A stretch of 64,000 bases of DNA from Armillaria gallica. Taxonomy: Eukaryota; Basidiomycota; Agaricomycetes; Agaricales; Physalacriaceae. The translations under genes and the position numbers were made by a program. The DNA lies in NCBI GenBank assembly GCA_037576215.1, contig JBANDB010000004.1, positions 3,906,001-3,970,000 of the forward strand, in the 5' to 3' direction. Below are positions 49,827 through 64,000 of this stretch, one piece after another. The notes beneath the pieces were generated by a model. The model was not told the DNA's origin. It saw only the letters and a list, made by a program, of their open reading frames with translations, and did not search any database. The number at the start of each line of letters is the position of its first letter. The stretch's first letter is position 1.

Positions 49827-51377
49827 ATGCCTCCCATCCGGACACACGAAGTTATAGAAATATCCGACAGCGAGTCAGAACATTTTTCCATCCTTAGAAA
49901 ATCGAGGAGTGCCACTCTTGTAGAGCGGTCGCCGTCGGTGGAAACCAAAACCAAGTACAAAGACGCGTCGCGAAAGCGTCCTTCACGCTCTCATGGTCCA
50001 GGAAAGCCCTATAATGTCGCTCGTACGGCTGTCGACGACTCTAAGAGGTTTTCAAAAAGCATTTTGCGGTCGTTTGTCGAGAGCCAGCCCGTTCCGAGTT
50101 CAATCACCGTTTCCGGCCAAAAGCTCACGCCTACCAAGGGCTTCAACATCTTCTGGTACTGGTGTGCAGAGCGGAAGCTAATAGATGATAGGAGGAGAGC
50201 TGGTCTTCCCGTGCCGTATGTCTTCACACCATCTGTTCCTTCCATCAAAGATTAAATGATGGTTAATCCCCCTAGGTGGACAGATGACGCTATTCTTCGC
50301 GACAACTTCTTCTGCAATACGTTTCGCGTTCTTGACCAGGTGTCACAATTTATCATCAAGGAGGTCATCGAGAAAGGACCAAGCGAACCAAGGGAAATAC
50401 TCTTTAGAGTCTTACTTTTCAACATGTTTACCAAGCCGGCAACTTGGAAATATCTTGAAGAAGAGTTGGGTCCCTTGACATGGAAGTCCTACAACCAGGG
50501 CAAATACTTTTCCGTTCTGTCGAAAGCGAAGAAGAGGGGAACAAAACTCTATACGGGTGCCTTTCAGAAACCTGCGCCAATCTTCGGTTTGGGAGACAAC
50601 TTCAAAAACCACCTTGCCCTGCTAGAGGTCTGGATGACCAGAGACCAACTTCTCGATCATATCAACAAGGCAGACTATCTTGCCGATGTCTTTGAATTCA
50701 TTGCCTCCTTCCCTGGTATGGCAGACTTTACCGGCTACCAACTCTTGCTGAACCTCGGTTATACTGAGCTTTTGCAGTTCTCCGGTATGGACTTTGTTGT
50801 ACCCGGACTAGGGGCGCAGTCAGGTCTTGTAAAACTGTTTGGTGGTAGCTTGAAGAAGGCGAGGGCCAATGTTCCTGGCATCGAGGTCGACATCATCGAG
50901 TGGATGACGAAGCATCAGAAACAGCACTTCCAGCGCTTAGGGCTCCAATGTCCGGTTTTAGGGCCGAAAAATCTGACCATGGAGCTTGCAGACGTCGAAC
51001 ATGCCATTTGTGAGGTCGACAAGTACCTGCGAATGTCACATCCAACGCTGAAGGGACTACACGATCGCACGCACAACAAGAGGGGCCACTTCAAGCCCTC
51101 GAGTGCCTGTCCAGCGAAACCGACTCTCCCCAAGGCCTGGAGTCATCCGGCCCGTAAAATCGCACGAGTTCGAGCCGAGAGGCCCCAGATTGACAAACGT
51201 TACACGGTCGCCTATATCGGAGACATGATAAAGGATAAGAATGGGAAGGTTCTCTACAAGGTGTTCTGGGAGAACTACAGTGATGATCAGGCTACGTGGG
51301 AGCCGGAGGATGAGCTGAAGAAGGATGCCCCTTTGAAGGTGGAGGAATTTTTGGAGAACCGGAGGCACAGGCACTAG
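49827..51377 (+). CDS. HMUDK-helical / thymine-pyrophosphorylase-like domain fused to a chromodomain
   Basis: Two exons, 49827-50215 and 50276-51377, giving 496 residues. Residues 8-17 (VIEISDSESE) look like a SUMO-interacting motif. Residues about 100-355 carry FNIFWYWCAERKLIDDRRRA, LPVPWTDDAILRDNFFCNTF, RVLDQVSQFIIKEVI, then FRVLLFNMFTKPATWKYLEE and LGPLTWKSY. I associate this pattern (WCxER...R..G.P.PWTxDxIL....FxNxxRxxDxxSQ) with the helical domain named for 5-hydroxymethyl-dU DNA kinase and the related alpha-glutamyl/putrescinyl-thymine pyrophosphorylase families, described in phages and fungi. Residues about 440-490 form a chromodomain: RYTVAYIGDMIKDKNGK, LYKVFWENYSDDQATWEPED, with Tyr, Trp and Tyr placed for a methyl-lysine cage. 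No kinase P-loop is seen. The neighbours are housekeeping genes, not transposons. Confidence 0.75.
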
Positions 51378-52680: not shown

Positions 52681-55600
52681 TCAACCTACGATCCATGATC
52701 TCAATGTAGGCTTGATTGTCTCTCCACTCTTTACCAAGCAGATTTGGTCCCTATTCAATGACAAATCAACGACTTCGGCACTTTGCACAGTAAAGTAACG
52801 CACCACCAATGACTTGAGCCGTTGTAGTACGGGCCGAAGTTTATTGCCCACATCCTGCCGGAAGCTTTGAGGGTCAGGCATAGACAGAAGTCTTATGGCA
52901 TATGCCTTTTCAGAGCTCTTCGTACGAGTCTCATCGCAATAGTACAACATATGCCTCCACAGCAATAATAGAATCATCTCAGTCGTATCTATCACACTTC
53001 ATCAGAGGGAACGGCATACAGGGATCAATTCATAAACTCACGTATGGCAGTCTTGACATCGTCTTGAAGGTCATCTCTCATGCGTTCCAACTCGCGACAG
53101 ATAAGCGACCGTTTTTGAGCAACATCAAGGTCACGAATAATTTCAGTGTCACTGTTGCGGATAACCTAGCGAATCCGCTCAGCTTCCATTTCGTAAATTG
53201 CGGATTTGAAAATACTTACCTCCTCAATGTTCTCAACACCGATATGGTCCTTCATAGCCAGTTCGGCCGAAATATCAGATATTTGTTTCAGGGTTTCGGC
53301 AAGATCATTGTATACGCCATTCAATGCCTCAATGGCATCTCCGAGTGTGGGCAAAGTCGCTGCGGAATTTGACTTAGAACCAATATGGTACCGGGAAAAA
53401 GCGGTCTTACCAATGAAGTGAGATCCCCGATCGTCCAACCTTGGAGCAGTAGTTATCGGTGAGAACATGACATTTATTTCGGGTTCTGTATATCGTCAGT
53501 TCATCTAGTCAATTTGAGGCATGCTTCGAATGTGAACACGAACCTGTGAATTCGCTAGCGGAGCCAATGTATGCGACCAGCGCTTTTCGAAGGAGGCGCT
53601 CCTTTTGACGGACGTTAACATCAAATCTAGTTTCCGAGCTGAAGCCTGCACAGAAGTCATCTCGCTTGCTCCAAAGAAATGTAAGAATAACCTACCAGAC
53701 GATAAAACACTTGCACTGAGCATTTCAGCGTCCGTTATTGGCCTCACATCTTGAGTCCAGCGTCCCGTGCCTAGGCATCGCGTAGAAAGACTCAGTATGG
53801 CAGCATGAATAGCGCCAAATCCAGAATTTGTTGATGCCTAGTCACAATTAGAGATGAAAGTAAGGAAGCTCCTCCACGGCGCACCAGTTCAGTTTTTGGG
53901 ACCAATGGCAACACGTTAGTGCAAAGAGAAACTAGTAAATGTATCTCCTCCAACAAAGATAACGAGATATCATCAATCTCGTTTTTCAATAGAATGACGA
54001 TGGTCGGGCTATGCATCGATAAGAAGTCCAAAGCTTGATTGCTTGCGGAAGAATGTTTAGAGCCTAACACAGCTACCACTGCATTCACAAGTTCTAATGC
54101 TGGCATGAACAGCTGGTGATACCGCTGAACAGCAGAAGGCAGGAAAGAATCTTGATCTGATAGAACATTAGAACGGTTTAGTGGACAGAAGGGCACACAA
54201 ACCTATAAACGCTTGATCCCCTTCAGGCCTCGCGTCAAGGAAGTCGGACTGAGCTAAGACCGTCACTACATTGGCTTCTAACAGGCGCTCGGCTCCGATT
54301 CTGCTCTGAGCAATACGGATGAAAAGAGACATTTTTGATTCGTATACATAGAGCGCGTTGAGATCATCTGAAAAGAACACGGCTCAGCAATATATACGAA
54401 AGCACGAATTATTGTTCTTACCTGGATCAGGTTTGAGAACTGATTGCAGTAGTAGATCGGATTCCGCAACACCATGGACAAAATTGGACAGGATACCGTG
54501 GCGAACAAGACACAGCAGCACCGAATACTGCTTTTCAGCAGCCGAAAGCTGACATAGTGATGTGAGCAGCATGAAAGCCACCGTCTTCCAAACTTCTGTG
54601 CCATCGATAGCATCGCGGGATATCATGGTGACGAGTCGCTCAAGATGTCCCTTCATCAACGACAAACTGTTCACTTGTATCGGCGACGTCGATGAATTAG
54701 TCTGACCCGGCGAAGTTACGGAGATACTATTGCCGAGGAAATTGTCGCGTGTGGAGGCGGTCAATGACGATGACAAGGACGTTGACATAGATAGGGCAAG
54801 AGAAGCCGAGTGGGGAAGCTGGGGTTTTCCAGAGGAAATGAGATGCACATAATTGACAATAGAAGCGTAGAGATTGCCACGGACGAGTTCTACGTGACTG
54901 TTCTCGAGGATGCATTCCAATATGTTCGTCAAAATAGCATACAGGCGCTCTGCAGGAAGACTGCTAGCCTCGTGATCCCCAGCAACAGTCTGGAGAATCA
55001 CTTGATGGTGTCTATCCTCTCGTAACTTCGTGATAGCAGACAGGGTCATCTCCGCAAGCAATACAGCCGTTGACTCCTGGAGATCGCTAGATCGTATGAT
55101 GGATGGTAAAACGTGGAGCAAATCGAATAGCATGTTCTCTCTGTGATCATGGGGTAGGCGATGGAAACATTTCGTCAACGTCATGTCCAGCATCCTTCGC
55201 CAGGATTCAAAGCCGGTGGCAGTGGCGTGGACGATTTCGCGCCGATGATTCTCCACAGCACAGCTCTCCAAGACGTACGCTGATTCTAATGCTAGTTGAG
55301 AAGCATCAGCCGCAGCCATAACCGCATTACGGGAGTACAAAGCGCGTCTCGCGGTGTTTAACAGCACCAATAACGCGGACCGATCGATAATTTCGCATCC
55401 AGAAACATCTTTTCGTGCACAAGCCTGGAGATTCAGTTGCCCGAGGAACTTGAGTTCGACATGTTCGACGGTCAAACTGTCCCTCCAGTCGAACGCGAGC
55501 GATTGGAGGAACTCGATGATCCTCATGTGCGACTGCCCTACTTCGTGGAACGTTCGTAGCATTCCGTCTTCCCAATCGGCACGGTTATCGTAGGTGGGCT

Positions 55601-58600
55601 CGCTTCCGAACAATATAGAGAGAAGTTCCGCAATGCCCTTTTGATTGTTCTTGTTTGAAAGAACGTGGAGTTCTAATGCTACAATATCGAATATCCATGA
55701 CCTTGACCGGAGGAAGGAGCTGAAGGACGAAACGGTTGCCGTGACGCGTGATCCATCACCGTAAAGGACTTCGATGAAGGGGTCTGCGAGCGCCTCGGGT
55801 GCCTTTGAAGGAACAGCGGCAAGGTGACGGGCAAAGAAGTCTTCCCTCGTTCTCAGGTACCTCATCGTAAATTCTGCGGTTGCCTGATCGGCAGACAGCT
55901 GGTATATGATCCTGTAGCACCTTTCCGCGAGGGCAGGAAGCCTGATGAACATGGGCGCCGCAAAGGGCGCAAAATCACGGTCTTTGCCTTTCCCTTTCAA
56001 CCGTGGGACACCAGCATTCAATAGATCAAGGATGACATGAACACACGTCTTCTGTGCGCCCAATGCATGAGGGTCCTGAATTTGCTGATCTTTCTTTGTG
56101 CTTCCAAAGAGCAGGAAGTGTGCGATATTGAGATGCGATTGAGTAAATTGCGTGTTCTGAATCAAGAGTTCAAGAACAGCCAGCCTCGTAGCCTGACTCA
56201 AATCCAAGGAGTCATCCATATCTGGCGCACCAGCGCCGGTAGTTTGTTCGGTAGCTGCTTCGGCTGCTATAACGTCCTCCGTCGACTCCGTCTCTAGGAT
56301 GTTCATGAATCCCGCTAAGATACGCTCGGAATTATCGCTCTGCTCAATCAGGATAGCTAGATTGGGTAGAGAAGTCGAAAATGATAGGATGCCAATGATC
56401 CGGACTGAGAGCAACACGAGTTCTGGGTATGCCGGATAGGCGACATACGAAGCGAGAGCAGGAACGTATTGGGGACCAAACGACAGTGATTGATCGAACT
56501 TTGTGAAGTAGGAGCGAGGGTGGATCGTTCCTACCGAAGCGGCGCCCTCAAAATCAGATAGCAGAGGGATGAGAACATCTAAAAAGATGTCCTGGATTTC
56601 GAGTACACGGTGAACGATCCGAAGTACCCTCACAATTGTGCTGGCGAAGAAATATTCTTCTCCGGCGAAGCCCTTGTCAAATCCTTCAACTCCTTCAACA
56701 AGATAGGACAGAATGCTGCGTTGAAGCCCTGAACTAGTCAGCATGCGGTTCATCACGTCATACCCGGGATGTATGAGTAGTGGAATCAAAACGTCGCCCT
56801 TCAGTTGACCATTCTCCGCTGCAGCAAGCAGAGACTCGAGATCGAAGCTGGCAAGACAGCGCTCGATAAAGCACAGGCAGAGGTCGTTCATCTTCCATCT
56901 ATCTGAGGGACGCAAATATTCCCGCATCGGAATCTTTGCGAAGACATTATCGATAACGAAACCGACAAAGGGACTGATACCAGGCAATCGGTATGGTTGC
57001 CCTAGCGTCTCGGGTATTGTTCCTAGACTCCCCGAGTCGATAATGCGGTCCGTCAAAGACACTCGTCGTGAAGTATGAATGAGCGTACTGAGAAGCTTCA
57101 GGAATGGGATAGTTGCAGGGTATAACCCGTGTGTAGCTTCAATCTCCTCAAGCTCCACCTCAACGCCCTTTGTGGGCAACAGGCCGGCTCCAAATCCGAC
57201 TTGCAAACTCGCTCTGACATTGATCACCTCCAAACGTTCCATCATTGTCCAAACGGCGCGACAAATCTCCACGCCTGCCGGTCCTGCACCGGGATGACAG
57301 AAAGCCGACAGCGCCTCGAACAACGCGCCTTTGAGTTCGAGCGGAATACTCAGAGGTAACAATGACACCAAAGTAGGAATCGCTCGGAAGTGAACATGCG
57401 AGGAAATCGCAACCCGAACGGAGATCGAGAAAAAGTGACGACGGTAGAGAGTAAACGAAGGAAGGATTGTGCGAGTAAAACATCTTTTGGGGTAATCACC
57501 GGTTGCTGAGCTGGCGGCGGTGGCATGGGTGCTGGTGCTCCAAAAAGGCTCTGACCGAGGGGCTGAACAGGTTGAGTACGGGACGTATTAGCGCTCGAAG
57601 CCCACGTATCCAACACATCAAAGACGGTAGCCCAGGAAAGCGTGGATCCTGATGTAGACGATGAAGGTAGAGTGCTTCCCTGAATGACCTCGCCTCCTCC
57701 ACGGGCCAGGAAATTGTACGCCAGTTCGCTGCTCTGCTGCCCTTTAGCCAAGCCAGCGAGCATGTCATACAATGCCATCATCATTGTTGCATCATGAACC
57801 GGAGTCGACCATACTGCCCATTGCAAAAACGCCGGCAACTTCCCCGCGGTTGACTCCAGATATTCCATGTAACTCGTACGAGCAGAATCGACAGGAGGAC
57901 CGGAACCCCAAAACTGGAGCGCAGATTCAGCTGGCAGGCTGGAGTACAGGATGCCAATAAGCGAATACAACATGCCGATGTCATTGCGCGGGGATGCAGT
58001 CGACTCTGGTGCTGCTGTCGAGAACCGAGAGTGGTTGCCACGAGTACGATCTGTTCGAGCACTGGACAATACTACGTCCTCTTGCCGCTGTTTGATCTTC
58101 CGTAGCTCCGAGGACGCGTGCGTCAACAAAGATCGTATGAGGGTCTCAAATGCGTTGAGCACTGCTGGTTTGAAGTCGTCCGTTGGTAGATCTCTCTGCT
58201 CTACCTGCTCCGTTGTCAAAGTGATAGAAGTTAGCAGCGAAGGGACGCTGGAGCTGCCCTGCTTCCTTTCTAAATGAATGAGGGCGGCAGCAAGGTAAGC
58301 GAAACAGTCCCCTTGAACCGCGCTCCAAATTTGAGCTTCCAACTGGTCTGTCTTGAACCCATCCCGATGCTCTATATTTGGATTTCGATGCCTGAAATCC
58401 GTCAAGAACAAGGTCCACTTCAATAGCACAGTGGCTTTCAAGCCCGGCTCTTTCCATATAGTCGATGGTCCCAATTTCTGCTTCATGTAAGACACCGTGG
58501 TAGTATCGTTGGCTAGTGCATTGCGTAGATGTGCACCAAAGCTTTTAGGATCAGCAGGATCAAAGGCGGCGAGTATGGTGGCGAGCATATAGTAAGTAAT

Positions 58601-59484
58601 GGGGTGGTTGGGATTAGAGAAGAGCCATTCAACAACGCGCATGATTCCGGAGGGAGGAAGAAAGCCTAGGCGTGCCATAATGTGAAGGGTTGCAGCGAGA
58701 TATCGCCGTTCATACTTGAGGGACTCATAACGAGCGTTCAATATGTCGGCACCAAGACTTCCAATACCTGTGTTTACCATCAAGAAGGCATATCATCGAG
58801 ACCAACGCCATACTCACCTTGGGCTGACGGCGCTACTGTATTACTTCTTGCATTCTTCCTCGCAGCATCTGTCTTTGACAATGCAGTTTCCAGTGCCCCA
58901 AATTCCCTGATGATTTTCAGACTTAACGACGATTCAACGCCTTGGGGCCCAAGACCTTGAAGCTCCTCTCTGACGAAACGATGGATTTGCGAATAGACGA
59001 GAGTGGCGTCCGGCGCTTCTGCAATGGTAGCTTCATAAATGTATCGAAGAGAATCAACGAGATGGCGCCGCCTCTGGTGGTACTCGGATATCGCCAATTC
59101 AATGGAGTCCACAGGCCCAACATTTGGATTTTCGGCGACGACTTTTTGGAGCAGTCCAGCAATGTAGCGTTCGGAACATTCCAGTTGCTGCGAAAGGAAT
59201 ATGACCTGTCGCGCAAACTCTGCGTTAACTGCGACTTGTTTTCCATTAATCAAAGCCTTGCCTAGGCCCACAGTTAGAGTGAATATCAAGGATGGATATA
59301 CCTGATACGCACCAGACTCGATTTCTCTCTGTTCCTGCTGATTCCTTGCACCGACATCAAAAAGTTTCAATAGACGCGGTTTAGCGACCATGAGCTCGTC
59401 AAGAAGCGCCTGGCCACCATTGGCCACCTGTTTACCGCTGAAGGTGTCGAAGAGAGCTTGACGGAGACGAGAAATAGACTCCAT
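52681..59484 (-). CDS. NUP192: NUP192/NUP205, inner-ring nuclear pore scaffold
   Basis: A very large helical protein, mostly in two long exons. The ATG is at 59484: MESISRLRQALFDTFSGKQV, then LLDELMVAKPRLLKLFDVG. Further on are VYPSLIFTLTVGLGKALING, FLSQQLECSERYIAGLLQKV, and after an intron GIGSLGADILNARYESLKYE and RRYLAATLHIMARLGFLPPS. The 54384-57371 block contains FRAIPTLVSLLPLSIPLELK, GALFEALSAFCHPG and many alpha-solenoid helices. The C-terminus ends LLLWRHMLYYCDET and PTLRSWIVG. NUP192 bridges the inner ring to NIC96 and NUP53 and is essential in fungi. The frame breaks once, near 57430-57436, in a run of five T (minus strand), where no intron fits; a missing T is the simplest cause. 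The C-terminal exons below 54300 are small. Confidence 0.9.
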
Positions 59485-59983
59485 TTGAGTCCAATCTGCC
59501 GCCACTGTGGACGTTGTTGTTCTTCACGCGTAGGCGCGTAAATCCAAACAAGGTTCAATAACGCACATCCCGTTTTGGAAGTTTCACTCAATATTTATGT
59601 AGGTTCGGCAGGTTCTTATTCTGCTTTCCTCTCTCAATTTGAACAAATCGACATGTCTAAATCATTGCCGAGTCGTTGCTCCCTAGCGTTCCACTCGGCA
59701 AGCACCAACGATTCCGTGTTATACTTAAAACAACAAAAGTGAAAATGGCACCTGCTGCTGTCTTTCTGCAGTTAAAAAAAAGAATAATCTCGCGGTGCTT
59801 GGTCAGGGACCAGAGTGCCTTCCTTTCTGTGGTAAGAGAGTCACTCCTAACAGCATCTTAGGAATATTTTGTGATCACTGGCGCCTATTCGAAGCTTAAA
59901 GTGGATGGTCGAATCAAGCAGCGCTTCGGCATGACTCGTGTACCACTCGTGGTTTCTCCGTCTTGTCTTTGGTTCGAAACACC
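59485..59983. promoter_or_regulatory. Divergent promoter region (NUP192 / helicase)
   Basis: About 500 bases between the starts of NUP192 and the ZNFX1-like helicase. Contains a short A-run at 59775-59784. No conserved element was identified; extent is inferred from the start codons. Confidence 0.4.
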
Positions 59984-62900
59984 ATGTCGAACGACTTGGA
60001 CATCCGTACAGCTCGCCTTCGTAGAATCTTCGACAATGTCTTACAAGGCAAGCAGTCGCTGGAAACCAAACCAGCTCTCAACTATTCCTTCAGGCTCTGT
60101 GTCTTCAGGCAGATCCTCCTGCCTGCATCGATAGGATACTTGCGAGCAAGGTTGGACTTTCCTCCTTGCAGACTGCCTTCCAATCCAATACAACGACGGT
60201 CTTTCTTAATGGCTTAGCTACAGATGCTCTGATTTATCTCCAGAATCCAGACATCAAAACGATCAGCTGTGGTCAATTTCTCACAAAGATCCTACTTGCC
60301 ATCGTTGATCCCCCACTCTTCTGGGACGCATTGGTCGAGGCGTTCAAAGCCAAACAGCTCTCCCAGAAGGCGCAACAATGTTTTGGATGGTTGTTGCATC
60401 AGCTCATAGTCACCCGAAACGACGGTGTGTCCCCTTATGTCCCACTTGCGGAAGAGATGGTCCCACTCTTCGCATCTTCCCCTCATCTGTGTATCCGTAC
60501 TATAGCTCAAAAAATCCATTGTATCATCTCCCTCGCATCTGTCTCTCCCGTCGTTTTCACGGCGACCTTCGTCCTGGTGGCCGACACGACAATGATTTTC
60601 CAGACTTTCGTCGGATCGCTATCCTACCTACTCCTGACGAGATCGCATCCACAGAAGCGCCCTTTCTCCGCCCCAGCTGGGCGCTTGATGACCCTAGTAC
60701 CGAAAGTCATCGTGAGGCGCTGTATCTGGACAACCAGTTTAGGTTAATGCGGGAGGATATGATCCATGAGCTGCGGGGAGAACTTCGTATTGCACTCGGT
60801 AAACAGACGGGCCGAAAGCATCGAGGTTTGGTGGTGGATAGGATGAAGATCATCGGCGTCAGCTTAGGTGATGACTCGAGGAGGAAGAACAAGTTTGCGA
60901 TCACCTTCCAGTGCGAGGATGATCTTCCGCAGCTCCGAAAGCTGGACAGCCATGCCCAACGAAAGGCATATCTGAAGAAGAATACCAGGCTGCTGAAGCA
61001 TCAGTCGTTGACCTGCTTAATGGTTGGCGAAACTGTCTTGGTGTTTCCTTGCGTCCGTCGAGACGAGGAGCTGCTGGCAAAAATCCCTCCAGAGATTGTT
61101 CTGGAATTGGAGGGCGAAGTGCCGATCACCAGTTTACTGTTGAAGGCGAAACCATCTACTTTTTTCAAGATCTTACAGATCGACACTGCTCTCTTCGCTT
61201 ATGAACCTGTCCTGAATGCTCTGAAGCGTATGCAGGCATTGCCACTTGCTCGGGAACTCTTGTTCTGGAAAGTGGGTGATGCTATGGGTATACCGGATCA
61301 TTCCGTCGGTTTGCGTGAAGCCATTTCCATGCTTGACAAGAGTATTGGTCAAGACTTGCGTGACGTGATGTCCTTGGATAAATCAATCGTTCTGGACCAG
61401 TCGCAGATGAATGCCCTGCTCTCAGGTTTGACACAGAAGGTATCCATTATACAGGGTCCTCCAGGTATGTTCTTCGTTCAGCATCTGACCACGATTGACC
61501 GACCTACTAGGAACTGGAAAATCATTCATCGGCGCTCTCCTTGCCAAAATTATCCACGACTACTCCGATCTGAAAATTCTTGTAGTCTGTTACACCAACC
61601 ACGCGTTGGATCAATTCCTTGAGGACCTCCTCGACGTTGGGATACCCGTTGAACAGATGGTTCGCATGGGTGGAAAGAACACACCACGGACAAAGCCTAT
61701 GGCTCTTCAATATCAGCAGAGCCCAACTCGATTTACTAGCCTTGACTATTCTGTCATTGACGGGTGTAAGCGTGAAATTGAACAGTTATCGAAGAGATTG
61801 GAACGTTCCTTCTCGAAGAACTTGCAGCAGGAGATTTCGATTAAAGAATTGATGGTCTATCTGGAACGCAGACAGCAAGCCTTCCACGAGGCTGTACAGG
61901 TTCCTTCTTCAGAGGACGGAATGAAGGTTGCGGATGAAAAGGGTCGCGCAGTTGATGAATATTATCTTCTCCGCCGATGGAAGGCGGGCCGTGATGCAGG
62001 TGTGTTCCAGAACGAGCAGAATATCCGCGATGCCTCCGACATATGGACCATGGACAAGGAAACACGCCAAGTGTATCTCTCCCAGTGGGAAGAGAGAGTC
62101 AGGAAGTTGGTTAGCAGAAAGCTTTGTCGCCGGATTCTCAGTTACAATGATCTAATCGACCAATTGACCCGCAAGTTTCGAGAGAAGGATGCCGCAATCC
62201 TCCGAAGCAAACAAATCATTGGCTGTACGACTACGGCTGCCGCAAAATACGGACTCGATCTACAAGCTGCCGCTCCCGATGTCGTGCTTGTGGAAGAAGC
62301 CGGGGAGATTCTCGAGAGCCACGTCGTGACGGCCTTGGGAGAGGCGGCGAAGCAACTTATCCTAATCGGTGATCACAAGTAAGTTCATTCTCGACCCATG
62401 ACCATCGAGAAGAAACAATGACCTTTCACTAGGCAACTTCGTCCCCGGGTGAATAATTATGAGCTCACAGTTGAAAAAGGCGAAGGCTACGACCTCAACC
62501 GGTCTTTGTTTGAACGCCTCGTTCTAAAGGGATACCCACATCAGACGCTTCATACCCAGCATCGCATGCGCCCTGAGATCTCGGCTCTTGTTCGCCATCT
62601 GACATACCCCAATCTTCTTGATGCTCCCAAAACCCAGGACCGTCCTCCTATACGTGGCCTTCGCGATAACATTGTTTTCATCAACCACAATCACCTCGAG
62701 GATGGTTGTTTGCAGATCATGGATTGCCACGACCTGGGCTCAAGCTCTTCGAAGCAAAATCTGTTCGAGGCCAAGATGGTGCTCAAGATCGTCAAGTATC
62801 TTGCTCAGCAAGGATATAGATTCCAGCCAAATGGTTGTTCTGACTCCATATCTTGCTCAACTCCATAAACTCCAGAGAGAGCTCAAGAACGAAATGGATC

Positions 62901-64000
62901 CCGTTTTGAATGACCTCGATTCTCATGAACTCATACGAGCCGGTCTTCTCACTCCCGAAGAGGCAATGTCACGCAAGCCATCCTTTCTTCGACTTGCAAC
63001 CATAGGTATGAACATTTCGATGAATCTGATATTCTTCATTCAATTCTGATCATCTCACCTCTAGACAATTACCAGGGCGAGGAGAGTGACATTGTCATCG
63101 TATCATTAACTCGAAGCAATCTCGATCATGACATTGGTTTCATGTCCGCTCCCGAACGGGTCAACGTTTTGCTCTCTCGAGTTAGAGATGGTCTCATCAT
63201 GATCGGCAATTCAGATACTTTTACGCAGGCGCGAAAAGGAAAAGCGGTCTGGCAGCAGCTATTCGCCATGCTGAGAGATCGAGGTCATATCTATGACGGA
63301 TTGCCGGTCAAATGTGAACAGCATCCATACCGGACTGCGCTGCTCAGCACTGAGTCACAATTTGAGAAGGACTGTCCTGACGGCGGGTGTTTGGAGCCAT
63401 GGCAAGTCTCCAGTAACTCCTTAAGTATCACGCCACGAACTCAATGGTATTCTAGTAACGCAACACTGAATTGTGGGCTACACGCGTGCCCATCTCTGTG
63501 CCATCGACTCCAGGACCATTCAAAGATGCGCTGCCGTCAAAAAATCACAAGTCAATGTTTAGAAGGCCATTCTCAATCGAGGGAGTGCAGCGAACGCGCC
63601 CTTCAGTGCTGTTGAAGATGTACGAACACCGGCCCGATACAACAGGAGGATTTACTGCGAAAACTGGACAGGGATCCACTCTCTTTGGACTGGAGGACTG
63701 CAAGGCAGACACCAAGTCTGGATGCTCGACGTGGTCTCCCTTCCTTGCAAGGATTCTATCCTCGCAGCAAGCCTTCGGAATCAATTGCTGCGGAATTGGA
63801 GACTTCATCGTCTGATAGCGATGATGATACTACTGAGACAAGTAAAGCGAAGATGGATGCTAAAAAGAACATTGAATGGGGTGTGGACGAGTTCTTTGTC
63901 ACTAGGACACTGGCGAAAGCAGAAGGTTATTTTTCTCTGCTTCCTTCAAGGTTCCATTGCCTCTTCGTTGAGAAGATGGTATTAAGAGCTGCCAAATCAA
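59984..64000 (+). CDS. ZNFX1/NFX1-type zinc-finger SF1 helicase, runs off the window
   Basis: Start MSNDLDIRTARLRRIFDNVL at 59984. Then a long helical region, followed by PGGRHDNDFPDFRRIAILPT, a family signature. The SF1 helicase has QGPPG (exon) joined to TGKSFIGALLAKII (Walker A), LVVCYTNHALDQFLEDLL, VVLVEEAGEILESHVVTALG (motif II as EEAG), ILIGDHKQLRP (III), TQHRMRPEISALV (IV), TIDNYQGEESDIVIVSLTRS (V) and APERVNVLLSRVRDGLIMIG (VI). NF-X1-type zinc fingers follow: CPDGGC, LNCGLHACPSLCHRLQDHS. The last bases read WGVDEFFVTRTLAKAEGYF and KMVLRAAKS, so little is missing. Relatives act in RNA silencing and RNA surveillance. Frame breaks at about 60092, 60563 and 62818 interrupt otherwise conserved blocks. 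Confidence 0.83.
63402..63455 (+). other. GC-AG intron in the ZNFX1-like gene
   Basis: The intron starts GCAAGT, the classic GC donor, and ends TTCTAG. The join gives CPDGGCLEPC then NATLNCG, restoring the zinc-finger cysteines. Confidence 0.82.

Follow-up and report, generated by a model that had tools for sequence, protein, structure and literature searches.

In plant chromomethylases such as ZMET2, a chromodomain is joined to a cytosine methyltransferase. To our knowledge, however, no chromodomain that reads histone H3 methylated at lysine 9 (H3K9me) occurs together with a base-modification domain of the HMUDK_hel kind (PF18723, hereafter hel), which Pfam names a "kinase, helical domain". 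The family is known from phages that modify thymine in their DNA, and its members include phage proteins called aGPT-Pplase1 (phrog_2396; for example YuA gp14 and PaMx11 gp50). The announcement of the SN1 phage places aGPT-Pplase1 in the M6-type cassette, along with Nmad5, aGPT-Pplase2, a pyrimidine hydroxymethylase, and a nucleotide kinase (PMC9476957). Here we describe a gene of Armillaria gallica, located in a stretch of 64,000 nucleotides (assembly GCA_037576215.1, contig JBANDB010000004.1, forward-strand positions 3,906,001 to 3,970,000; hereafter the window), whose product combines a hel domain with a C-terminal chromodomain. The SN1 phage protein that matches this product is annotated as aGPT-Pplase clade 1. 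We propose, with a probability of roughly 0.5, that it is a chromatin-targeted modified-base-handling protein that couples chromatin state to modified-base recognition.

Domain architecture and conservation

The hel domain spans residues 104-390 and matches nearly the whole Pfam profile (positions 2-281 of 281) at 362.2 bits (cut-off 25), and the E value of 2.4e-108 rules out a chance match. The chromodomain (Chromo, PF00385) covers residues 439-490 with 46.8 bits against a cut-off of 25.1. Its sequence, predicted fold, and predicted aromatic cage resemble those of the chromodomains of the H3K9me readers MPP8, CDY, and HP1. The cage positions, which we assign from HP1 as Y439, W461, and Y464, are all aromatic in 119 of 120 homologues. 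A P-loop motif (G-x4-GK[ST]) is found neither in the window protein nor in the 120 listed homologues. An initial annotation, made from the nucleotide letters and open reading frames (ORFs), had proposed the hel domain, the caged chromodomain, and the missing kinase P-loop, all of which are borne out. It had named two outcomes that would count against it, a missing profile match and a chromodomain without its aromatic cage, and neither arose.

The gene has two exons, and its spliced product is 496 amino acids long:

49827..50215, plus strand: exon 1, covering codons 1-129 plus the first two nucleotides of codon 130 and encoding the N-terminus and the start of the hel domain; placed by splicing and by residues 1-130 of the Armillaria solidipes orthologue
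49851..49880, plus strand: motif VIEISDSESE (residues 9-18), resembling a SUMO-interacting motif (SIM); from a motif scan of homologues
50136..51056, plus strand: hel domain (PF18723, residues 104-390), split by the intron; Pfam match and ten invariant residues
50216..50275, plus strand: intron of 60 nucleotides (GT..AG) containing an in-frame TAA at 50253-50255; the orthologue match is split around it
50276..51377, plus strand: exon 2, ending with the stop codon at 51375-51377; placed by splicing and the orthologue match
51201..51356, plus strand: chromodomain (PF00385, residues 439-490) with the predicted methyl-lysine cage Y439, W461, and Y464; Pfam and Foldseek matches

The coordinates first proposed for the gene, 49827..51377, are thus correct, and the TAA in that frame is intronic. 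The top homologue, an A. solidipes orthologue, is 95% identical from end to end and matches the genomic DNA in two pieces, with 94% identity for residues 1-130 and 95% for residues 126-494. Since the TAA is intronic and the orthologue matches on both sides of it, a pseudogene or frameshift was rejected. Searches of the whole genome (86 Mb in 28 contigs, with the gene on contig C4), both with PF18723 and with the A. solidipes orthologue, identified this as the only PF18723 locus.

The two homologue searches each scored the approximately 8000 candidates that shared the most words with the query. Precomputed domain assignments place both domains in 118 of the best 120 of 457 matches; in a second search with a Sistotremastrum protein, the same is true for 117 of the best 120 of 1769 matches, the query included. 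The named matches among these come from many Agaricomycete genera, in Agaricales and Boletales as well as Rickenella, Sistotremastrum, and others. The orthologue in Coprinopsis cinerea, a laboratory model, is CC1G_11207. With a single locus found in the genome and the same fusion in many Agaricomycete genera, transposon cargo was rejected in favour of a stable chromosomal gene, in agreement with the initial annotation, which had argued against cargo. The architecture is already known to database annotation, where one homologue is labelled "alpha-glutamyl/putrescinyl thymine pyrophosphorylase clade 1/Chromo". In a literature search whose coverage lay outside most subscription journals, we recognised no paper on the fungal fusion of hel domain and chromodomain.

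Conservation was compared among 121 fungal rows, 120 proteins retrieved with the hel protein of phage LuckyBarnes, and eight phage proteins. Ten residues (N144, R147, D150, F281, G307, G309, G313, C375, E376, and K379) are identical in 120/120 of the LuckyBarnes-query proteins and in 8/8 phage proteins, and in fungi each is kept in 106/111 to 121/121 of the rows that have a letter at the position. We conclude that the domain fusion is genuine, is found widely among mushrooms, and is evolutionarily constrained. The SIM-like motif proposed for the N-terminus is present at residues 9-18 but is not a general part of the design. Of the 120 homologues, 69 have at least 30 amino acids before the domain and were counted, with the other 51 set aside; only three of the 69 carry the motif, one from Armillaria and two from Desarmillaria, and shuffled sequences gave a mean of 0.5 and a maximum of 3. 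The motif was consequently rejected as a conserved feature of the family. The N-terminus is disordered in the predicted model of the A. solidipes orthologue.

Proposed role

We consider the likeliest role of the protein to be recognition of C5-modified thymine at histone-methylated chromatin. By analogy with the phage relatives, the helical domain of about 290 residues, with its DNA-glycosylase-like helix-hairpin-helix (HhH) predicted fold, would bind DNA and present, probably by flipping it out, a C5-modified thymine such as 5-hydroxymethyluracil (5hmU). The modified base might then be offered to a partner enzyme or be read as a mark. The chromodomain, with its cage of the HP1/MPP8 type, would hold the protein on methylated histone H3, most likely in H3K9me heterochromatin, so that chromatin state would be coupled to recognition of the modified base.

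If the domain does recognise C5-modified thymine, mushrooms of a broad class would possess a protein that links histone methylation to a base other than cytosine. The single locus in this genome and the orthologue in C. cinerea make the presence of modified thymine in basidiomycetes directly testable. A wider scheme, which we put forward as speculative and on balance doubtful, is a heterochromatin-directed thymine-modification pathway that mushrooms acquired from a DNA-modification system of bacteria or phages. In it, the H3-methyl reader would recognise, or help to produce, hypermodified thymine within silenced DNA. The pathway would be a eukaryotic equivalent of base J or of the marks by which phages tell self from non-self, and it might act against transposons.

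Phage relatives and their gene context

The hel domain was detected by tblastn in 461 of 50,697 phage records, and in 495 with a bacterial query. The phage proteins share the full-length domain and the ten invariant residues with the fungal protein, but they lack a chromodomain; eight of them are 22-30% identical to the Armillaria orthologue. Their genes lie mostly near thymidylate synthase or hydroxymethylase genes, and some lie near genes for kinases and amino acid:DNA transferases. We examined gene context in ten records, the first eight of which were used for counts of PF18748, PF18747, and PF18724. PF18723 is the only Pfam domain of the hel protein in all ten.

Overlap between the hel gene and a P-loop kinase gene is found in four records: by 1 nucleotide in YuA (gp13/gp14; PF18748, 65 bits), by 4 in Sonora (041/042; PF18748, 57 bits), by 1 in PaMx11 (gp49/gp50; AAA_33 at 28 bits, with PF18748 at 18 bits being below the cut-off), and by 8 in Guetzie (gp56/gp55; Ploopntkinase3, PF18751, 63 bits). 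The Brevibacterium phage LuckyBarnes (4381-6843) carries a thymidylate synthase gene followed by a pair of TET-associated glycosyltransferase genes (PF20691), and its hel gene overlaps the second of the pair by 4 nucleotides; this record has no match to PF18748, PF18747, or PF18724. The hel gene of Montesquieu adjoins a gene annotated as thymidylate synthase/pyrimidine hydroxymethylase, with an annotated aGPT-Pplase clade 2 gene further on; PF18724 was found there neither by Pfam, run on part of the clade 2 protein, nor by a search of the record. D504 has PF18747 and PF18724 genes no more than 3 kb from its hel gene, and kinase and PF18724 matches are found elsewhere in the Det7 record, tens of kilobases away. 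In YuuY, the hel gene overlaps an ORF of 115 amino acids without a Pfam match, and no more than 6 kb away are genes annotated as thymidylate synthase, glycosyltransferase, and thymidylate kinase. No such partner was found within 6 kb of the hel gene in a Nodularia phage. Overall, PF18748 or PF18747 is found in four of the eight records counted, and PF18724 in the same four.

Our main reason for regarding the hel protein as a base-recognition partner is that its gene overlaps genes for unlike transferases, which encode a kinase in four records and a glycosyltransferase in one further record. Given this gene context and the predicted fold, the phage domain is better seen as a partner that handles modified bases. 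Behind the Pfam name there may be a common module for recognising modified bases, as the phage and bacterial contexts suggest. The earlier suggestion that the helical domain may act alone is thereby refined: the phages encode it as a separate one-domain protein, and the gene overlaps point to a partner. Weighing against a recognition partner, two reports describe a purified 5-hydroxymethyldeoxyuridine (5-hmdU) DNA kinase as one enzyme (PMC6449724; PMC6457204). The first match among predicted viral structures is an SP10 protein of 637 amino acids named "5-hmdU DNA kinase" (E 1.3e-12, rmsd 16.7); to judge from this name and from its length, it may be a fusion of kinase and hel domain.

Fold and structural comparison

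With the model of the A. solidipes orthologue as query, the first Foldseek matches are the chromodomains of MPP8, CDY, and CBX. Predicted structures of the hel domain have an overall helical fold like that of Qng1/DUF2419 and of HhH DNA glycosylases, at 8-13% identity; active residues of a glycosylase were not identified in the domain. The predicted fold is suggestive of the likeness to HhH glycosylases that the initial annotation raised. A sequence search of the PDB with the hel profile gave no credible relative.

A DNA glycosylase that acts in heterochromatin and excises 5hmU or some other damaged base is a further possibility, which we consider improbable. An OGG1-type lysine, which we would expect two residues past the second hairpin glycine (position 311), is not the rule: among 121 rows, S (37), I (33), and V (14) are the three most frequent letters at this position, where the window protein has Q. 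D369 is kept in 121/121 fungal and 120/120 prokaryotic rows, but two of the eight phage rows have Gln. In addition, the phage relatives appear to belong to pathways in which the modified base is kept.

Another possibility is an enzyme that writes hypermodified thymine in heterochromatin, with the helical domain transferring a group to 5hmU in DNA or phosphorylating it together with a partner kinase. Such activity would be consistent with the strictly conserved polar residues R147, D150, C375, E376, and K379 across fungi, bacteria, and phages, and the first VIA-align match of a bacterial relative is an enzyme that acts on 5-phosphomethyldeoxyuridine in DNA. Against it stand the P-loop count of 0/120 homologues and the missing sequence link to the transferase family PF18724. 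A member of that family, PaMx11 gp46 (assigned by Pfam), is an amino acid:DNA transferase solved, according to its PDB title, as the glycinyltransferase PUGT (8z2n); identity is 10%, and when hel was compared by hhalign with PF18724, represented by a profile of three sequences, the probability was about 1%. We regard a writer enzyme as unlikely.

Bacterial relatives

Chromosomal PF18723 proteins of bacteria are 29-38% identical to the Armillaria orthologue (22 bacterial or metagenomic proteins, 7 of them at 35-38%), and their N-terminus is colinear with the fungal protein. They differ in lacking a chromodomain and in having MazG_C, thymidylate synthase-like, M78, or TIR gene neighbours. We searched up to 7 kb on each side of the best 80 of 518 confirmed relatives, which are mostly from Actinobacteria and partly near-copies. 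According to tblastn, MazG_C is near the PF18723 gene in 65 of the 80 loci, an M78/ImmA-type gene in 55, and XRE in 30; rarer neighbours are Nmad2 (11), thymidylate-kinase-like (9), ThsB-TIR (8), and SLOG/TIR (8) genes. Thymidylate synthase-like genes, present in 63/80 loci (PF00303 at 60.4 and 27.3 bits for two queries), would also fit the writer enzyme.

In this recurrent neighbourhood, the PF18723 gene is accompanied either by MazG_C and M78 peptidase genes and a divergent thymidylate synthase gene or by ThsB-TIR and SLOG/TIR genes, and the arrangement looks like an uncharacterised nucleotide-modification defence system. According to the DefensePredictor report, the newly validated domains of anti-phage systems include a 5-hydroxymethyluracil kinase and a thymidylate synthase; aGPT-Pplase, MazG, and MazG-C are among those predicted but unvalidated (PMC13092281). 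The bacterial relatives are plausibly part of a nucleotide- or DNA-modification defence. No PADLOC model matches the bacterial or phage hel proteins, and the fungal protein has only a weak match at its chromodomain; NCBIfam has no match for the hel proteins. In a tree of 52 rows, the 20 fungal rows form one clade (100/99), and four phages (YuA, Sonora, Det7, and D504) lie beside it at 92/82. These phages are on long branches, which may be joined falsely, so the tree does not settle the nearest relatives or the donor.

Partner genes in the Armillaria gallica genome

An exon-blind, and hence weak, search of the A. gallica genome gave no match to PF18748, PF18747, or PF18724; the same models match in phages. 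UDG was likewise not matched in this genome, while 13 of 14 control genomes were, suggesting that the intron-blind search misses genes. The empty searches for partners are therefore not read as absence. Taken at face value, they count weakly against the writer enzyme and weakly in favour of a reading in which the domain was co-opted simply to bind DNA or nucleosomes, modified bases would be irrelevant, and the protein would be a structural component of heterochromatin. Half of the eight phage records also lack detectable partner families. However, the fungi keep the ten residues that are invariant in prokaryotic and phage members, and retention of C375, E376, and K379 would not be expected of a simple binder, which makes this explanation quite unlikely. 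Modified-base recognition at methylated chromatin continues to be the reading that we prefer.

Tet_JBP gave three fragments below the Pfam cut-off, each with Tet_JBP as its only Pfam match. These 2-oxoglutarate (2OG) dioxygenase-like fragments lie on contigs C6, C1, and C2, and the C1 match contains two TGA stops. A 2025 report describes TET/JBP encoded by transposons in Agaricomycetes (PMC12730594). The main text of a study of oxidised 5-methylcytosine in Laccaria and Coprinopsis does not contain the word 5-hydroxymethyluracil (PMC8889193). DNA_methylase has five matches in the A. gallica genome. Two of them, at C9:3880866 and C18:67597, are equal in length and score and are perhaps a duplication or an assembly duplicate.

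Neighbouring genes

Downstream of the gene, ORFs of Nup192 (PF11894; 431, 109, and 37.5 bits) occupy window positions 54384-59505 (minus strand), as would be expected in an ordinary stretch of genes. Further along, a UPF1-like AAA_11 helicase ORF (PF13086, 64.5 bits) lies at 61495-62382 on the plus strand, and the ORF at 63142-63615 is cysteine-rich in the manner of NFX1/ZNFX1 proteins.
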